Below, piece by piece: positions 55,772 to 64,000 of a stretch of DNA of 64,000 nt (within the stretch, counting starts at the first letter, position 1; each line of letters opens with the position of its first letter). The notes under the pieces were generated by a model. The model made no database searches. It was not told the origin of the DNA and was given only the letters and a program-made list of their open reading frames with translations. Origin of the DNA: Butyrivibrio sp. (lineage in GTDB: Bacteria; Bacillota; Clostridia; Lachnospirales; Lachnospiraceae); contig JAGAAO010000025.1 in assembly GCA_017615275.1 (NCBI GenBank), positions 1-64,000 on the forward strand. Direction: 5' to 3'. The position numbers and the translations under genes were made by a program.

Positions 55772-57202
55772 TTAGAATCGAACCTGTTTCTCAACCATTC
55801 TTACAAACTCAGTGTTGTTTCTTGTCTTCGAGAAGAGGTTAATGCACTGATCTACAGCGTCATCAGCCTTCATGCTGTTAAAGCCTTTTCTGAGGTTGTT
55901 GATAGCTGCAAGCTCCTCACTGTCAAGAAGCAAGTCTTCTCTTCTGGTACTTGACTTCGGAATATTGATCGCAGGGAAAATTCTCTTTTCCTGAAGTTTT
56001 CTGTCAAGAACCATTTCCATGTTTCCTGTTCCCTTGAATTCCTCGTAGATAACATCGTCCATCTTGGATCCTGTCTCTATAAGAGCCGTTGCAAGAATTG
56101 TAAGGCTTCCGCCCTCTCTCATGTTTCTCGCTGCACCGAAGAATCTCTTAGGCATATGAAGAGCCGCGGGATCAAGACCACCGGAAAGTGTTCTTCCTGA
56201 AGGAGGAACAACGATATTGTACGCCCTTGTAAGTCTTGTTATTGAATCAAGGAGGATAACAACATCCTTACCGTGCTCAACAAGTCTCTTTGCCCTCTCC
56301 ATAACCATCTCGGCAACTCTCTTGTGGTGCTCGGGAAGCTCATCGAAAGTTGAATAGATAACCTCTGCGTTAGGTCCCTCAATTGACTCCTTGATATCCG
56401 TTACTTCCTCAGGTCTCTCATCAATAAGAAGGATGATAAGGTGTATCTCAGGGCTGTTCTTAAGAACTGACTTTGCAACTTCCTTAAGGAGGGTTGTCTT
56501 ACCTGCCTTAGGAGGAGATACGATCATTCCTCTCTGTCCCTTACCGATAGGGCTTATAAGATCCATAATCCTCATGGCCACGCTCGCGCCGGGCTGTTCA
56601 AGTCTTATTCTTGAATTAGGGAAAATAGGTGTCATATTCTCAAAGTTCCATCTTCCCATAGCAACTTCGGGCTTATATCCGTTTACCGTATCAAGGCGAA
56701 GAAGAGCCGCAAACTTATCTGTCTCTTTCTTTGCTCTGCATGTTCCGGCAAGGATATCACCCGTCTTAAGATTAAACTTCCTGATAAGACTGGGTGCAAC
56801 ATAAACATCATTCTCACCCGGAAGATAATTCTCACATCTGATGAATCCGTAACCATCCTGCATTATCTCAAGGATTCCGTTTGCTGTATCGCCGTCTGCG
56901 ATCTCATTCTCAGCATCCTCTTTTGCAGCTGTATCATTTTTCTTTTCAAGTTTTGTTTCGTTATTGTCACTTTTGTGACCTGACTCCTCTTTTGAAGTCT
57001 TTACCACAATATTTCTACGACGGGATTTTGAAGGAGCTTCTGTTGCTTCCTCAACCTTCTCCGACTTTTTTTCCTTTTCATCAAGTTCACACATAAGATC
57101 GATAATCTCAGACTTTTTTAAAGCAGCAACGCCCTTGATTCCTCTCTTCTTTGCAATGTCTCTAAGATCATTAAGTTTAAGTGTCTCGTACTTTTCTCTC
57201 AA
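55772..57202 (-). CDS. rho: Transcription termination factor Rho
   Basis: 476 residues from a TTG at 57202 (AGGAG 5 nt upstream); the longer frame to 57277 lacks a site. Rho is the RNA-dependent hexameric ATPase that ends transcription. Motifs: a Rho N-terminal SAP-like start ([20 protein letters not shown]), a charged insert (about 40-105), the cold-shock-like RNA-binding domain (DGYGFIR, about 116-122), Walker A PPKAGKT (230-236), [12 protein letters not shown] and RTLSGGLD. Full length. Confidence 0.97.
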
Positions 57203-57387
57203 ATTTACTCCTATTCTCTGCGCCCCTGTCGCAAATTTAAAACTATAACGGTTAAAATAATTGAGTGGGATAAACAAATGAATGCGTAAAACACGCGTTT
57301 GCTTACGGAAATATTACTTTTTTAGCACATTAGTACAATACAACATATTTTTTGCAATTGCAAGAAAAAATTTCACATAGTAACGGA

Positions 57388-57419
57388 AAAGCGATTGTCC
57401 CAAACCGGAACAACCGCTT
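57388..57419 (-). terminator. Terminator of hflKC
   Basis: On the minus strand AAGCGGTTGTTCC-GGTTT-GGGACAATCGCTT followed by TTTT-CC. About 30 bp past the hflC stop. Confidence 0.75.
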
Positions 57420-57448
57420 AACCATGCACCTTAACGTTAATTTTTTAA

Positions 57449-58330
57449 TTAATTAAAATCTCCATAAAGTATTTTTGCAAGCTCTGAGTTCTTATCAAGC
57501 ACAAGCGTCTTGTCTCCCTTAAGAGATCCCTTGAGCGCATCGAGCCCTCTTATATAATTGTAAAACTCAGCCTTCTCAACAGTATCGTAAGCCTTTGAAA
57601 GTGTAGCCATGTATGCTGATTCACCCTCTGCTTCAAGAACTGCCGCATCTTTCTGTGCGTTTGCCTTTACAATGGCAACCTCTTTGTCGGTCTCGTTATG
57701 AATCTTCTGAGCCTCAGCTTCACCCTGAGCAGTAAAGGATGCCGCTATATTATTTCTCTCGGAGATCATTCTCTCATATACAGCCTGCTTATTGTCATCA
57801 GGAAGATCAAGAGCCTTGATCTGTGCCTGTACAATCTCAATGCCGTATCCGTTCATATCAGAATTGGATTCTTCAGAGATGAGCTTTGTGAGCTGCTCTC
57901 CTCTCGCCTCGATGACTTCATCCTGAGTCATTGAAGAGATTGCATTCTTAGTGGAATTATAAACAGATGCCTCAATTCTCTCCTCTGCCCTTGCATCGAT
58001 CGCGTTAAGAGTCTGAATGTATTTGATCGGATCAACAACCTTCCATATAACATATGTATCTGTGATCATTGACTTCTTGTCTTTTGTAATAACGTCAGAC
58101 TTAGGAATATCAAAAAGTACGATCTGAGCGCTTATTGTCTGTGTATCATCAATGAAAGGTGCCTTGAAATAAAGTCCGGGATTCTTGGCAATGCTGATGA
58201 TCTTTCCGAATCTTCTTACCGCAACATACTCTTTCTGATGAACAACATAAGTTGCAGATCCTGCAAGGAATGCAAGGATCAGGATCAATATTACTATTAT
58301 GGTTCTTGTAATCTTCTTAGTTTTCTCCAT
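57449..58330 (-). CDS. hflC: HflC protein (FtsH modulator)
   Basis: 293 residues from the ATG at 58330, with AGGAGG upstream; it overlaps the stop of hflK. One N-terminal membrane anchor (IIVILILILAFLAGSATYV), the SPFH domain (about 25-200) and a charged helical tail. HflK and HflC form a membrane complex that surrounds and limits the FtsH protease in E. coli. Confidence 0.93.
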   Translation of the reverse strand: MEKTKKITRTIIVILILILAFLAGSATYVVHQKEYVAVRRFGKIISIAKNPGLYFKAPFIDDTQTISAQIVLFDIPKSDVITKDKKSMITDTYVIWKVVDPIKYIQTLNAIDARAEERIEASVYNSTKNAISSMTQDEVIEARGEQLTKLISEESNSDMNGYGIEIVQAQIKALDLPDDNKQAVYERMISERNNIAASFTAQGEAEAQKIHNETDKEVAIVKANAQKDAAVLEAEGESAYMATLSKAYDTVEKAEFYNYIRGLDALKGSLKGDKTLVLDKNSELAKILYGDFN

Positions 58331-59261
58331 TGCCGCCTCCTTCAACACTGCTGAAACTCTCCAGAGGAAGCATCTTCTGTGTGTTTCCGTCCGAAATTAT
58401 AACCTTAAGATCGGGAAGAATATCCTCCATTGTCTCATAGAACAATCTCTTCTTGGTTATGTGCGGCTGGAGCTTGTACTGTTCGTACATCTCGTTAAAT
58501 CTTGCAACCTGACCTTCAGCCTCTGCGATTCTGGACTCTTTTTTAGCCTGCGCATCCTGAATGATCTTGTCGGCTGCTGCCTCTGCCTTGGGAAGCTCTT
58601 CGCTCTGATACTTCTTGGCATTGTTTATTGCAGTTTCTTTGCCCTGCTTTGCAGTCTCAACAGACTTGAATGCCTGAACAATCTCCTCTGTGGGAGGCTC
58701 TGCATCCTGAACAGAAAGATTTACGACCATAAGTCCTATATCTTTTTCGGTTAGTTCGTTCTGAAGCTTCTCTTTTACCTCTGACTGGATCTGTCCCTTC
58801 GCTGTTGTGATGACATCATCAACAGGATAATTTACAACCGTGTTCCTGATGCATGAAAGAGCCATATTCTTCATAACAAGCTCAGGATTCTCGCAATTGT
58901 AATATGCAGCTACAGGATCGCTCACCTTGTATTCAAGGTAGAAATCGATGTCAACAAAGTTGAAATCCGAAGTGATCATTATTCCCTCATCATCGACGGT
59001 TATGTTCTGACCGTCCTGAACGGTATATCCTATGCCTATACCGTGCGTGGTCATATCAATAAGATGAGCACGCTGAATGAAAGGAACTTTGAAATAAAGT
59101 CCTGCGGTATCAACTCTTACAACCTTACCGAACATGGTAAGGATCGCCTGCTCCTGCTCCTTTACGGAATAGAAGCTCCCTGATACTACCATAAGCACTA
59201 CAATGACTATAATGCTTATAACTATGTACCTGGGATCAAATTTTTTCCTGGTCTTTTTCAT
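58317..59261 (-). CDS. hflK: HflK protein (FtsH modulator)
   Basis: About 314 residues from the ATG at 59261 (GGAG nearby), with one N-terminal membrane anchor (YIVISIIVIVVLMVVSGSFY), the SPFH domain and a long Glu/Ala-rich helical region. Paired with hflC, with overlapping ends. No FtsH gene in the window. Confidence 0.93.
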   Translation of the reverse strand: MKKTRKKFDPRYIVISIIVIVVLMVVSGSFYSVKEQEQAILTMFGKVVRVDTAGLYFKVPFIQRAHLIDMTTHGIGIGYTVQDGQNITVDDEGIMITSDFNFVDIDFYLEYKVSDPVAAYYNCENPELVMKNMALSCIRNTVVNYPVDDVITTAKGQIQSEVKEKLQNELTEKDIGLMVVNLSVQDAEPPTEEIVQAFKSVETAKQGKETAINNAKKYQSEELPKAEAAADKIIQDAQAKKESRIAEAEGQVARFNEMYEQYKLQPHITKKRLFYETMEDILPDLKVIISDGNTQKMLPLESFSSVEGGGNGEN

Positions 59262-59283
59262 CATTATCTCCATTCTCATAAAA

Positions 59284-59338
59284 ACGGGCACCGCCACCAA
59301 AGAGATCAGTCAATATCTCTTAAGACAACAGTGCCCGT
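59284..59338 (-). terminator. Terminator of the purine permease gene
   Basis: ACGGGCAC...GTGCCCGT outer stem with an inner AGAGAT...ATCTCT stem, then TTTTA on the minus strand, between the permease stop (59361) and the hflK start. Confidence 0.75.
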
Positions 59339-59360
59339 AGTTATACATAATCAAGCAGTC

Positions 59361-60710
59361 TTATTGGAAATTCGTTATTAGGGCAATTATCCTAAGCGCA
59401 AAGAGAACAAATACCACCCACATAATAGGGCTTACATCCTTTGACTTCTTGGCAATAACCTTAAGAATAACCCAAGCGAGGACTGCAAACATGATACCTG
59501 TAGCGATTGAATATGCAAGAGGCATCATAACTACCGCAAGATATGCTCCTACAGAATCAGCAATATCCCCGTCAAATTTTACTTTTGTGATACTCATGAG
59601 CATCAGCATGCCGACATAGATAAGAGCCGGAGCTGTTGCGAATGAAGGAATCGCAAGAAACAGGGGGCTGAGTACAAGTGAAACAAGGAACATAACACCT
59701 GTTGTAAGTGCTGTAAGACCTGTTCTTCCGCCTGCAGCAACACCTGCGCTTGATTCCACGAAACTAGTGATCGTTGATGTTCCGAGAACAGCACCGGCTG
59801 TTGTTCCTACAGCGTCTGCAAGGAATACCTCACCAACTCTGGGAAGATTGCCGTCTTTATCCAGAAGCCCTGCCTTGTCGGCAACGCCTACCACTGTTCC
59901 AACTGTGTCAAACAGATCCACATACAGGAAACTGAATGTGATCGCAAGGAACTGAATAAGGTGAGATCCCGCCCAGCCAAAATTAAGCTTGAACGCAGTC
60001 TCAGATATTGCTCCGAGCTGAAGTCCGTTTGAGAAATCAGGGAAAAGATTACCTGCTGTATAAACACCTGCTGCCTGAAGGATCATACCAATGATCCAAG
60101 TTCCGATGATTCCTATGAGAACACCACCTGTCACATTGTAGTGAACAAGTGCTGCGATAAGTATAAGTCCGATAAGTGCAAGGACCATGTCAAGGTCGCT
60201 AAAGCTTCCAAGTCCTACAACTGTAGCTTCATTAGCTACTATAATATGTGCATTCTGCATTCCGATGAAAGCAATGAACAGACCGATACCTGCAGAAATA
60301 CCGAATTTAAGGTTCTGCGGAATGCTGTTTATTATCTGCTCACGGAATTTAAAGAATGAAAGCAAGATAAATATCAAACCTTCTACAAAAACTGCTGTGA
60401 GAGCGATAGTAAAAGGATTCTCTTCTCCGGCAAGCTCCGAAAGACAAACAGTATATGCAAAATATGCATTAAGTCCGAGTCCTGCGGAAAGTCCGATAGG
60501 ATAATTGGCAAGAAATGCCATAATAAAGGTTGCGATTGCCGAAGCAATGGCAGTTGCAACAAATACACCGTTGGCATTCATTACAGTACCCAGAATATTA
60601 GGGTTTACCGCAAGAATATACGCCATTGTAAGGAATGTCGTGACACCCGCCAAAATCTCCCGTTTCACCGTAGTGTCATGTTCCTTGAGCTTAAATAACT
60701 TCTCCAACAT
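59361..60710 (-). CDS. AzgA/GhxP-type guanine-hypoxanthine (NCS2) permease
   Basis: 449 residues with 12-13 hydrophobic segments. Motifs of the AzgA-like group: FLTMAYILAVNPNIL (about 27-41), GLSAGLGLNAYFAYTV (about 74-89), the central ATAEA-type segment TIATSFLYVDLFDTVGTVVGVA (about 248-270) and GTSTITSFVESSAGVAAGGRTGLTAL (about 310-335). It imports guanine, hypoxanthine or adenine by proton symport. Monocistronic and followed by its own terminator; no purine riboswitch fits in the 46-bp gap upstream. Confidence 0.93.
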   Translation of the reverse strand: MLEKLFKLKEHDTTVKREILAGVTTFLTMAYILAVNPNILGTVMNANGVFVATAIASAIATFIMAFLANYPIGLSAGLGLNAYFAYTVCLSELAGEENPFTIALTAVFVEGLIFILLSFFKFREQIINSIPQNLKFGISAGIGLFIAFIGMQNAHIIVANEATVVGLGSFSDLDMVLALIGLILIAALVHYNVTGGVLIGIIGTWIIGMILQAAGVYTAGNLFPDFSNGLQLGAISETAFKLNFGWAGSHLIQFLAITFSFLYVDLFDTVGTVVGVADKAGLLDKDGNLPRVGEVFLADAVGTTAGAVLGTSTITSFVESSAGVAAGGRTGLTALTTGVMFLVSLVLSPLFLAIPSFATAPALIYVGMLMLMSITKVKFDGDIADSVGAYLAVVMMPLAYSIATGIMFAVLAWVILKVIAKKSKDVSPIMWVVFVLFALRIIALITNFQ

Positions 60711-60756
60711 ACTTTTCCTCTCCTTTGCATTTACCTTTTTTTACTTCATAATCGGA

Positions 60757-61386
60757 TCATCTGAAAAAGATTCTTCCGAGTGAGTAAACAATCTCATAGG
60801 TATTGTCCCAGAATTCGAATATGACATGCGCCATTATAGGAATATATATATTCTTAGTAGCTATGTAAGCAATCGTAACAGGGAGAGACATCAGTATCCA
60901 TTGCATTATCGCAACAGGTCCGTGTGCCCTGCTGAGTGCACAGATAAGGAGACTTGCAACGGTCAAAAGAATCATCTTTTTCTTATCACCGAATCTGATG
61001 ATCGCCTTTCTGTAAAAAAGTTCCTCAGCAACAGGTTTCATTATAATCATCATGCACGCATAGATTATCGTCGGTATCAGATTATTAGGAACAATTATCC
61101 ATACATTCTCTTTATAACTGTTTGGGTACAGCTGAGAAATATAATCTTTCAATTTGGATGCCGCAAACAAACCTGCAAACGTCACAAGGACGGGTAACCA
61201 AAACGTTTTTACTTCGCAAAAATAACTGTTAAGCTTTCTGAACGAAAACTGTTTATTTATAAAATAAAAGTATATAAGCAGTCCGAGATAAAAAGCGAGA
61301 AATAAAACGAATGCCTGTTTAGGAAAAAATATTGTCAATATTATTAAAGCCAATTCCCATACGAACGGTATATATAAGTGTTTCAA
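60757..61386 (-). CDS. CPBP-family intramembrane metalloprotease
   Basis: About 209 residues from a TTG at 61386 (AAGGAG 6 nt upstream; an ATG at 61410 is less well placed). Six or so hydrophobic segments; the CPBP motifs are EELFYR (EExxxR, about 119-124) and HVIFEFW (HxxxE-type, about 188-194). Members cleave membrane proteins or process peptides, often for bacteriocin self-immunity or CaaX-like cleavage. No bacteriocin genes are near, so the target is unknown. Confidence 0.85.
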   Translation of the reverse strand: MKHLYIPFVWELALIILTIFFPKQAFVLFLAFYLGLLIYFYFINKQFSFRKLNSYFCEVKTFWLPVLVTFAGLFAASKLKDYISQLYPNSYKENVWIIVPNNLIPTIIYACMMIIMKPVAEELFYRKAIIRFGDKKKMILLTVASLLICALSRAHGPVAIMQWILMSLPVTIAYIATKNIYIPIMAHVIFEFWDNTYEIVYSLGRIFFR

Positions 61387-61581
61387 GGTACACTCCTTTT
61401 TAAAGTACAATTACACTTTAAATATTATAAATACTCTAATTATCGAGGTCAATTCATTTTTATTCCGTTTCGTGGAGTTCCGGTGGGTTTGGATGGGTTT
61501 GGACTTCGGCTTTCGGGGAAGCTTCTCCGGGCGCTCTTCAGGGGCTTTCTCAGAGCTTGCTATTGGCTTTTTCAGCCTCAT

Positions 61582-61781
61582 CTACGTGAATGATCCGCTT
61601 TTTCTTACGCTTTTCACGTAGTTTCCTGCTTATTTTCCGCTCACCTACGTGAGCTCCTGCCCAATATTGGTTTGCTTTCACGTAAATATTTCCGAATTTT
61701 GGCGAAATCTACGTGAGAGAGAAAGGATTTTGAGGTTTGCTTCACGTAGACACGCCCGGGTTTCAGTCCTAATCTACGGGA
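61582..61781. repeat. Array of alternating inverted octamers CTACGTGA/TCACGTAG, about 32-bp period
   Basis: Seven octamers at 61582, 61614, 61645, 61678, 61709, 61742 and 61774, strictly alternating CTACGTGA and TCACGTAG (one each TCACGTAA and CTACGGGA). Start-to-start distances are 32, 31, 33, 31, 33 and 32. Spacers of 23-25 nt are unrelated except for a short extension (GCTTTCACGTA, TTGCTTCACGTAG). The period is close to three helical turns. In RNA, successive pairs give 8-bp stems with 24-25-nt loops. It does not match a CRISPR (repeats too short, alternating) and no gene starts inside it. Confidence 0.9.
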
Positions 61782-61895
61782 AAAAAGAACGATTATTAGT
61801 CACATACCCGTAACCCAAGAAAGTACTAATTATATTCTGTGCCCCTTCAGAACCATCCCAAAAGTCTACTCTTAGATCCACCAGAATCAACCTGC

Positions 61896-62058
61896 GACAC
61901 TCGTATAGAACCCCAACTGCAATACAAGTGTCTATTTCGAAGAAAACTCCCTTGATTTAAGCAAATCCGACACTTGCCAAGAAGCTCAATCGATTTACAA
62001 GTGTTCACACCACCTGTTTCAGACACTCCTCCCGCAATCCACTGCCATATCAAGTGTC
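61896..62058. repeat. Three hairpin units GACACTTG-N21-CAAGTGTC
   Basis: Three pairs at 61896/61925, 61969/61998 and 62022/62051, each with an exactly 21-nt spacer. Arms: GACACTCG/CAAGTGTC, GACACTTG/CAAGTGTT, GACACTCC/CAAGTGTC. Spacers differ completely. The gaps between units are 36 and 16 nt. A second family of short stems of the same style, directly beside the CTACGTGA array. Confidence 0.88.
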
Positions 62059-62117
62059 GCTCCTCAATCTTTCGCCGTTGTGCTCCTCATTTCCTGCTCA
62101 ACTCAGTAACCGGAACT

Positions 62118-62395
62118 CATAATAAGTCCTTAATACTTTCAAGATACTTTGCGTCATCATATTTAAATATATTTTCCCCATCGAGCATGTACGCTCTCAG
62201 AAGATAGAACGTCATAAGCCTCTGCATATTTGTCTTGCATGAAATATGCATCACCGATAGAAGTCTGAAACCACACCGATTCTTCACGTGTATTCTTAGG
62301 CTCTGGAACAGAGTCCAAGCCCTGCTTTCATATCTCTATTGCATCATCATATTTCTCTAAATCAAGTACTTGTTCCGCTTACGAATTTTTTATCA
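62118..62395 (-). pseudogene. Remnant of a tetratricopeptide-repeat (TPR) protein gene
   Basis: On the minus strand the DNA reads DLEKYDDAIEI, a stop, KQGLDSVPEPKNTREESVW, then FQTSIGDAYFMQDKYAEAYDVL, and after a frameshift LRAYMLDGENIFKYDDAKYL and ESIKDLL-stop (62118-62120). These are helix-turn-helix pieces of a TPR protein like those common in Lachnospiraceae, broken by at least one stop and one frameshift, without a start. Not translated as a whole. Confidence 0.75.
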
Positions 62396-62506
62396 CCATT
62401 AAGAACGCTTTCCCTCGATATTTCCATCGTTGCGCTTTAGTCTGCTAGATTGTAAAATTATTGAAGTTGCCCTTACATCATTTGAACATTTTACAAGGAG
62501 AAAATA

Positions 62507-62914
62507 ATGGACATAAATAACGCTTTAGAAATCCAGTCATTAAAGAGACGAGTTGGGGTTATCGCCTTAAAACTCATACTAGCATTTATGATGGTTAATT
62601 TGCTGGCAAAAGGTGGTGAATTCGTCGGAAAGTTACTTATATTCTTAATATCATATGGCTTCATCTCAATTTTCGGTTTCTTTGTTAAAGTAACCAAAAG
62701 CTATATTGTCGGCATCATTGTAGGATTAATTACGTTTTTATTTTTCATTAATTTCTTTGAAAAAACTAACACTAACATTCAGGGAATAGCATCAATAGCT
62801 TTTTGTGTCGGCGGAGCCCTTTACGACGTTATGAGCATGTTGAAATTATACAAGCTCACCAAAGGTTCAACAGGCAAAACAGAAACACCTGATGACAATC
62901 AGAAAGCATCTTGA
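62507..62914 (+). CDS. Small membrane protein of unknown function
   Basis: 135 residues with four hydrophobic segments (about 20-36, 41-58, 66-85, 92-108) and a Thr/Asp-rich hydrophilic tail (GSTGKTETPDDNQKAS). AAGGAGA lies 7 nt before the ATG. Very hydrophobic and AT-rich relative to the neighbours. No family recognised. It sits alone behind the repeat arrays. Confidence 0.72.
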   Translation: MDINNALEIQSLKRRVGVIALKLILAFMMVNLLAKGGEFVGKLLIFLISYGFISIFGFFVKVTKSYIVGIIVGLITFLFFINFFEKTNTNIQGIASIAFCVGGALYDVMSMLKLYKLTKGSTGKTETPDDNQKAS

Positions 62915-62978
62915 TCAACAACAATATTATTAAAACAAAAGAATCGATTGCGATTTTTATTGAATAAGGAGCTTCATT

Positions 62979-64000
62979 TCACGCCTTCTCCGCAACTATA
63001 ATACAATTCGAGCTCGGATACTCGGTTGGAGTGCCGGAGGGGTCAAGAAGCTCGAGGTGTTTGCTCAGGTTATCGGGATAGCCGGGTTCGAGAAGCTCTT
63101 TTGCCTCGATGATCTTGGCGCCGAGTTCTTCAAAAAACTCCCTGTACTCTTTCAATGTAAAATACCCAAACTGCTCCTGAACTTCGTGTGCATAGCTCTC
63201 ACTTCCCCATGTGTAGGTAAAAAGAAACTCCCTTATGTAGTTTATATCACCGGTCACAGTGAGGTTTTTGTCATCTATGGAAAGAACTTTTCTTTCCTCG
63301 GGAATATCTTTAAGTCCCTTGAAATCCTTGACGTAGTTTTTGAAGAAATCAAGTCCCGCCGAAGTCTTAAAACGTATCATCCTAACGGCATTTCCTTCAG
63401 TCTTAACTCCGTCGCGTATCACAATCCTGCCGCCCGGTTTCAGACTGTCAAAGGCATTTCGAAGAGCTTTCTTGACACTCGCGATATCAAACCTTCCGTT
63501 CTCGGTTTCCGTATAAGAATAGATTTCATGAAGTATCGAGGAAAAGATAATGCTACCTACTTCTTTTTCCAAAGTACCGGACACAAAATTGTGAACCTTA
63601 ACTTCCCAGTTATGTCCCTCGCGGTGCTTCTTCTGTTCGAGAGTCTCGATGACATTGGTTGAAATATCTGTTCCGATAACTTTCTTGTCAGGGAAACGAC
63701 TCTCAAGCTTATCAAGAAGAATTCCTCCGCCTGAGCCGACATCGACAACACAGTCTCCCGTAACAAAATCAACAATACCGTCCTTGGTGCTTGCAGCGAC
63801 GTTGTTCATTGTCTCAAGATACTTATCTTCGTTGTTTAACCTGTCAAAAGCATCTCTCCTAAATCCGAACATATCATAAAGAACAATTATGCTCTTCTCA
63901 AAAGTAAGAAGCCCGCTTCTTTCCGCCTCCACGCAGAACTCAATAAGCTTCTCGCACACACGCGAAAACTTGAAATCAACAAAAGCGCTCTTATTTTCTA
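62979..64000 (-). CDS. Class I SAM-dependent methyltransferase (5' end beyond the window)
   Basis: At least 340 residues. The frame stays open past the GTG at 63959 through the right edge (ENKSAFVDFKFSRV precedes it), so the true start lies outside. Motif I VVDVGSGGGILLD (from about residue 70 of the GTG reading), motif II VIGTDISTN, and motif post-I LKPGGRIVIRDG are those of class I methyltransferases; the N-terminal 60 residues resemble a winged-helix or helical cap domain. Substrate unknown. Confidence 0.85.
   Translation of the reverse strand, partial: ENKSAFVDFKFSRVCEKLIEFCVEAERSGLLTFEKSIIVLYDMFGFRRDAFDRLNNEDKYLETMNNVAASTKDGIVDFVTGDCVVDVGSGGGILLDKLESRFPDKKVIGTDISTNVIETLEQKKHREGHNWEVKVHNFVSGTLEKEVGSIIFSSILHEIYSYTETENGRFDIASVKKALRNAFDSLKPGGRIVIRDGVKTEGNAVRMIRFKTSAGLDFFKNYVKDFKGLKDIPEERKVLSIDDKNLTVTGDINYIREFLFTYTWGSESYAHEVQEQFGYFTLKEYREFFEELGAKIIEAKELLEPGYPDNLSKHLELLDPSGTPTEYPSSNCIIVAEKA

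Follow-up and report, generated by a model that had tools for sequence, protein, structure and literature searches.

Trains of inverted octamer pairs, phased on the DNA helix, and the nuclease genes they accompany in Butyrivibrio and other bacteria

Two neighbouring arrays in the window

What is a row of short repeats that alternate in orientation and follow one another at nearly constant steps doing between two genes of a Butyrivibrio genome? The row lies near the end of the window, by which we mean the whole stretch of 64,000 nucleotides that was analysed (contig C90 of genome G000), with the gene for a CAAX-protease-like membrane protein (Rce1-like, PF02517; 60757..61410, minus strand) on one side and a 135-aa ORF (62507..62914, plus strand) without a Pfam family above the cut-off on the other. 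The CAAX-protease-like gene has relatives in 36 of the 61 genomes searched, all within the genus; of the 24 further genomes from the order in the searched set, not one has a relative. Our main reading, mechanism included, is that the window holds orphan copies of two different "nuclease arrays", and we give this reading a probability of roughly 0.7.

Array 1 (61583..61812, no strand assigned) consists of four inverted pairs with eight members in all and is an orphan, nuclease-free copy of the TACGTGA family. Units 1 to 3 pair TACGTGA with TCACGTA, at 61583-61589 and 61614-61620 (unit 61583..61620), at 61646-61652 and 61678-61684 (61646..61684) and at 61710-61716 and 61742-61748 (61710..61748); unit 4 (61775..61812) is a variant with TACGGGA at 61775-61781 and ACCCGTA at 61806-61812, and none of the four units is assigned a strand. 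The initial annotation had listed seven octamers, CTACGTGA alternating with TCACGTAG, and these are indeed present at 61582, 61614, 61645, 61678, 61709, 61742 and 61774, in strictly alternating orientation and with the steps that it gave (32, 31, 33, 31, 33 and 32 bp); all seven members stand, and the count rises to eight with ACCCGTA at 61806-61812, which had been missed. The accompanying statement that each orientation is represented by three exact copies has to be corrected, the exact copies being three in one orientation (61582, 61645 and 61709) and two in the other (61614 and 61742), with TCACGTAA at 61678 and CTACGGGA at 61774 as the inexact members. That such a row would not arise by chance was borne out by a scan for alternating chains of at least four exact 7-mers at steps of 15-60 bp, which returned one chain in the 64-kb window and none in five first-order Markov copies. 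The doubly changed pair TACGGGA..ACCCGTA of unit 4 (window 61775-61812) is also present at L192 (G000:C36), and it resembles the word CCCGTAGA, which belongs to a different nuclease clade (L082).

Directly beside array 1 lies array 2 (61896..62058, no strand assigned to the whole or to its units), an orphan copy of a second family, GACACTYG (GACACTYG/CRAGTGTC). Its three units are GACACTCG/CAAGTGTC at 61896..61932, GACACTTG/CAAGTGTT at 61969..62005 and GACACTCC/CAAGTGTC at 62022..62058, each with an in-pair step of 29; unit 2 lies 73 bp (7 turns) past unit 1, and unit 3 lies 53 bp (5 turns) past unit 2. Different word families share spots, as arrays 1 and 2 do side by side at 61583-62058 of the window: in G069 C12 (L228) a TACGTGA pair stands on either side of a ACCGCACA train, and in two cases a gene near a TACGTGA array of one species has a homologue near a GACACTYG array of another, namely at G070 C123 and G000 C82 (52% identity; L232, L198) and at G069 C2 and G000 C49 (41% over 93 aa; L229, L196).

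Array 1 is not isolated in its own genome: array 2 lies alongside, and TACGTGA arrays occur at eight further loci. In G000 the pattern TACGTGA-N20-30-TCACGTA matches 33 times, spread over nine contigs (C1, C4, C15, C25, C26, C36, C42, C73 and C90, the last being that of the window), and its reversed control not once. Irregular scatter of the octamers, named at the outset as an observation that would speak against the array, was not what we found; elsewhere in the genome the pairs again stand in phased arrays. When the search was extended to the 61 genomes of the genus, as had been proposed, the pattern gave 93 matches compared with 17 for the reversed control, and at least one match was found in 23 of the 61 genomes. 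The GACACTYG pattern has 11 matches in G000 and 0 for its control; over the 61 genomes the degenerate pattern is not above control (44 matches compared with 53), and for this reason only completely read arrays were used to assess how far this family has spread.

Each of the nine G000 TACGTGA arrays strings together some four or five pairs, with in-pair spacers of 24 or 25 bp and between-pair linkers of nearly always 25 bp. The chain opens with TACGTGA or the variant TACGTGT in eight of the nine, and the C4 chain opens one element earlier. By eye, an A- or T-tract often lies in mid-spacer, about 1.5 turns from each octamer (L187, L189 and L193), and DNA bending may matter in these arrays.

A nuclease family and its octamer words

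The C1 array ends 55 bp before the gene for a 266-aa protein (L044:1846-2646) and is the TACGTGA cis copy with an intact nuclease gene (G000:C1:24313-25458; L044, L187). Relatives of this nuclease occur in 54 of the 61 genus genomes, the largest number in any one genome being nine. They also occur in records under the names Butyrivibrio, other Lachnospiraceae, Clostridiales, Treponema and Fibrobacter, which are in many cases metagenome assemblies; this second sample is the best 80 of at least 569 confirmed stretches. The family, of ~266 aa, has no convincing Pfam or NCBIfam match and no name in the family libraries searched. Among 17 members scanned at E 0.01 there was one weak NCBIfam match (E 0.0017) and one weak Pfam match (TPD, E 0.0046), and the other members had no match in either library. 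The C-terminal part matches the end of PADLOC PDC-S68 in 17/17 members and that of HEAT_CxxC_PDDEXK in 15/17 (for the C-terminal domain of L070, E 3.6e-27 and 2.2e-3, respectively). In its model the protein has a predicted restriction-like nuclease domain. As candidate counterparts of the E, D, H and D catalytic residues of EDxHD homing endonucleases, E163, D194, E209 and H210 are conserved in 57/57 sequences and D215 in 47/57.

Arrays are strongly concentrated upstream of the genes of this one nuclease family. With five of the 80 loci left out as too short, an array score of at least 3 was reached upstream in 50 of 75 nuclease loci, compared with 6 of 69 windows downstream, 1 of 225 shuffled sequences, 8 of 231 windows further away in the same loci and 10 of 340 windows of one related genome. 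In 25 of the 75 loci no array was detected upstream, and some genomes have arrays without a close nuclease. Among strong cis arrays, 26 of 37 end at most 150 bp before the chosen nuclease start codon. In G000 itself there are seven nuclease loci, and at four of them an array reaches the threshold (words TACGTGA, CAACAGGG, ACACGC and TGCCTAAG). At the C68 nuclease (L182) the train is weaker, is built on the near-palindrome TGAGTCA and is irregularly spaced, which sets it apart from the other families, and two nuclease gene fragments have no array.

Two kinds of locus depart from the simple arrangement. At L171 and L172 the window downstream of the gene holds a strong alternating train (scores 4.5 and 5.5), and at L106 a second nuclease gene (L106:536-1333), together with a 12-member CACCCGTA train in L106:1-1150, lies upstream of the searched gene.

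To relate word to protein, we set the words of 61 nucleases against the similarity of the proteins. Pairs in which at least six motif bases match made up a growing share over six bins of increasing N-terminal identity (0.00, 0.04, 0.14, 0.33, 0.52 and 1.00; random words, 0.014). The correlation between word and protein was 0.26 for the N-terminal part compared with 0.16 for the nuclease part, and the correlation was reached by 0 of 500 permutations. The comparison shows that nuclease clades differ in their octamer and that octamer similarity tracks protein similarity. Because word and protein co-vary, the binding step of the mechanism proposed below is supported.

In the second family the word drifts in steps with nuclease identity. 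All five nucleases that are at least 62% identical to L247 (L247 included) have upstream ACACT..AGTGT pairs, 30 bp apart (31 bp in one), and the four relatives examined that are 50-55% identical to L247 have the words CGCGTGTA, ACACGCAG, GACACGCA and AGACACGT, the last with a low score. Since relatives of L247 carry ACACT..AGTGT pairs upstream, array 2 also has nuclease partners. GACACTYG-type pairs lie upstream of nucleases in other species (L247/L257, L248/L260, L258, L259 and L261), and in G000 itself the sole relative found is 5'-truncated (C20).

Helical phasing and nuclease-free copies

Unit length, taken as two successive steps, was determined for 63 arrays of 41 word families, with one best 8-mer per locus setting the motif period; because 17 of the loci, from the genus and from G000, were entered for arrays already shown there, the 63 loci are not to be read as a rate. 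The unit lengths cluster at 52-54, 63-65, 72-76 and 85 bp, which correspond to 5, 6, 7 and 8 turns, with one at 69 bp. The Rayleigh statistic at 10.5 bp over the 41 word families is 0.84 (p about 3e-13). As word families are not independent, the test was repeated with the nucleases collapsed to 28 clusters at 50% identity (at 40% all nucleases form one cluster, which leaves nothing to compare), and it gave 0.85, with 10.75 bp as the best test period and none of 2000 uniform nulls coming near. The same rule holds within single arrays of the second family, where the in-pair step is 29 (once 30), the linkers are 23-24, 33-34 or 44 bp, and the units, of 52-53, 62-63 or 73 bp (27 units, 12 loci), differ by one turn within arrays; left out of these linkers were L251 (the same series as L250), a second chain of L248 (steps 39, 29 and 33) and a chain of L195 (steps 31 and 41). 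A linker of 39 bp would not keep the phase. Overall, the arrays are trains of inverted octamer pairs in which successive pairs lie at whole helical turns, and both the comparison across the 41 families and the second-family arrays taken singly lend good support to the earlier suggestion that all sites face the same side of the DNA. The simple reason for whole-turn steps would be a protein bound to the double helix; because each kind of array is tied to its own nuclease gene and the spacing is in whole turns, the octamers most likely serve a DNA-cutting protein as docking sites.

Array copies without a nuclease gene occupy intergenic DNA and vary from one species to another. Of 28 orphan loci, the window included, 26 showed no remnant of a nuclease gene in the 4.5-20 kb examined of each; the remaining two, L039 (G078) and L235 (G073), are decayed cis loci with an array and pieces of the nuclease gene. 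An array of G069 is absent from the same junction of gene and tRNA gene in G034 and from beside the same gene in G016 and G032. Given the nuclease-free loci and a presence that differs between relatives, arrays come and go without the nuclease gene. When 583 kb were scanned without a preset word, 12 arrays emerged, 8 of them from G000 (183 kb picked around known arrays) and 4 from 400 kb of G084, compared with 0 in 400 kb of shuffled sequence; 4 of the 12 adjoin a nuclease gene, and the known C36, C80, C72 and GACACTYG arrays were still missed.

At L046:1420-1726 (G064:C20) a TACGTGA array lies within a short element that has perfect 22-bp terminal inverted repeats at both ends, and arrays can thus also travel in a MITE-like element. 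One end of a 22-bp terminal inverted repeat was found at L033, L035, L051 and L224, and neither terminal inverted repeats nor a target-site duplication was seen by eye in the 60-bp flanks of the nine G000 arrays.

Mechanism, alternatives and known systems

We propose that the nuclease, probably through its N-terminal part, binds the octamers as a dimer across the inverted pair, ~30 bp apart, and that the pairs are very probably aligned on one face of the DNA, letting neighbouring dimers touch; successive dimers would share a face because the units are whole turns. The later steps are put forward with less assurance. At the cis copy, nuclease bound at or near its own promoter may limit its own synthesis, by analogy with I-TevI. 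At scattered copies, the nuclease may cut or nick, after which the array could be copied into the broken site, and the array would be a non-autonomous passenger of the nuclease, as REPINs depend on RAYTs.

A noncoding RNA with a row of variable-loop hairpins, one of the roles offered by the initial annotation, now appears very improbable. Both strands do fold better than shuffles (z -2.6 and -2.7), as inverted repeats must, and the unit 4 variant TACGGGA..ACCCGTA keeps pairing; however, this variant occurs without its pairing partner at C26 and, in two places, at C36, and Rfam gave no match up to E 1 (window 57000-64000). The proposal to look for covarying stems was taken up with nine distinct orthologous cis arrays (12 aligned rows, L074 left out, with guaA upstream in 11 of the 12 rows, not L076), in which 50 of 56 octamer columns and 96 of 173 spacer columns are invariant. 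None of the seven distinct octamer changes is compensated by either neighbour (one would give G-U), and because these changes are uncompensated, RNA stems are unlikely; further, a unit length in whole DNA turns is meaningless for RNA and unexpected of its hairpins. A CRISPR-like guide array, in which spacers would direct the nuclease, is the most improbable reading of all. Repeats of constant form, differing spacers of near-constant length and a nuclease gene alongside do recall such an array, but the repeats alternate in orientation, the spacers are inherited among orthologous arrays and repeated inside arrays, and the unit length keeps helical phase; there are no direct repeats with newly acquired spacers. 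Plain mobile repeats (MITEs, REP-like) with no functional tie to the nuclease, whose upstream position would reflect insertion near such genes, would agree with the copies inside elements with perfect 22-bp terminal inverted repeats. We consider this quite improbable, because the octamer tracks the nuclease clade, arrays lie mostly upstream and not downstream of the nuclease, and whole helical turns are unexpected of passengers.

Two further readings give the arrays a function. Arrays that serve as decoys or self-marks of a defence nuclease, restraining it on the chromosome until invading DNA frees it, would fit the relation of its domain to the end domain of PADLOC PDC-S68 and HEAT_CxxC_PDDEXK and the presence of up to nine paralogs per genome. 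This is unlikely, as no partner gene was recognised beside the listed nuclease loci (with unannotated ORFs) and the PDC entries are themselves candidates. A regulon, in which the arrays are operators for the nuclease or another factor and the window array controls the CAAX-protease-like gene or the 135-aa ORF, is a doubtful but real contender. It would account for the 26 of 37 strong cis arrays close to the nuclease start codon and for some trans arrays that lie 38 bp (C42), 52 bp (C4) and 97 bp (the G084 locus) from the gene that follows, and the CAAX-protease-like gene has a promoter-like site (61452-61424) between it and array 1, 131 bp from the array; such sites were, however, no more frequent in the scan than in shuffles (3 compared with 3.2). 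Against it, when the two nearest ORFs on each side were compared, no genes were common to the eight G000 trans TACGTGA arrays and those of G070, G069, G084, G005 and G073, the only own-versus-other matches being the cis nuclease and one match of 23% identity at a second-family array; array presence varies between relatives, and trains reach 17 octamers, beyond what operators need. A recombination or anchoring locus, also among the first suggestions, is possible.

Of known systems, REP, BIME and REPIN repeats with their RAYT (TnpA-REP) enzymes are alike in being short inverted-pair repeats scattered between genes, sometimes in trains, and in being tied to an enzyme gene whose class the repeat class tracks; dispersed intergenic copies tied to enzyme class are likewise found among the octamer arrays. 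RAYTs are HUH/Y1 (IS200-like) transposases, and REPs are 20-40-bp palindromes with a GTAG or similar tag. Unlike RAYTs, the array enzyme carries the predicted restriction-like nuclease domain, and the HUH/Y1 family was absent among Pfam and NCBIfam matches up to E 0.01 in the 17 members. Unlike REPs, the arrays have two octamers ~30 bp apart with free spacers, in units at whole helical turns; a REP-type palindrome was not seen, the spacers not being complementary by eye, and TAC or GTA occurs inside 34 of 63 octamers, the rest being without it. By analogy, the arrays would work like REPIN-RAYT with an enzyme of a different kind, one that recalls a homing endonuclease with its own train of sites.

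The placement of sites directly upstream of the gene for their candidate binding protein, presumably the nuclease, is like the autorepression of I-TevI. I-TevI is the GIY-YIG nuclease of phage T4 and has one such operator site, unlike the arrays, which hold many phased sites. According to a passage in PMC3943268, the homing endonuclease I-TevI represses by binding to a regulatory site that resembles its target. Unlike the EDxHD homing endonuclease I-Bth0305I, to which it is 18% identical over the aligned part, the array nuclease was not seen in an intron or intein, and its gene comes with a train of sites. PADLOC PDC-S68 and HEAT_CxxC_PDDEXK have a related C-terminal nuclease domain; unlike PDC-S68 (models of 1202-1273 positions), the array nuclease is a short stand-alone gene with an array. 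Iteron arrays and the arm-type sites of integrases also place several short sites for one protein on one DNA face. Iterons are direct repeats at an origin, unlike the array sites, which alternate in orientation and beside which no gene for replication or for an integrase was noticed. Overall, the array and nuclease system matches no family tested here.

Tentatively, and at clearly less than even odds, the arrays may form a separate class of bacterial mobile DNA, in which homing-endonuclease-like enzymes would spread trains of their own binding sites and not their own gene, with a word for each enzyme clade and helix-quantised spacing, in Lachnospiraceae, Treponema and Fibrobacter records. If the reading is right, the arrays would be a second, independent case beside REPIN-RAYT for how short repeats persist in genomes. 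With 41 motif families in a small sample, paired words and N-terminal domains would make a recognition code directly testable. It would also, in a single step, provide a repeat class of rumen and gut bacteria with its enzyme, its recognition code and, in the whole helical turns, a physical rule.
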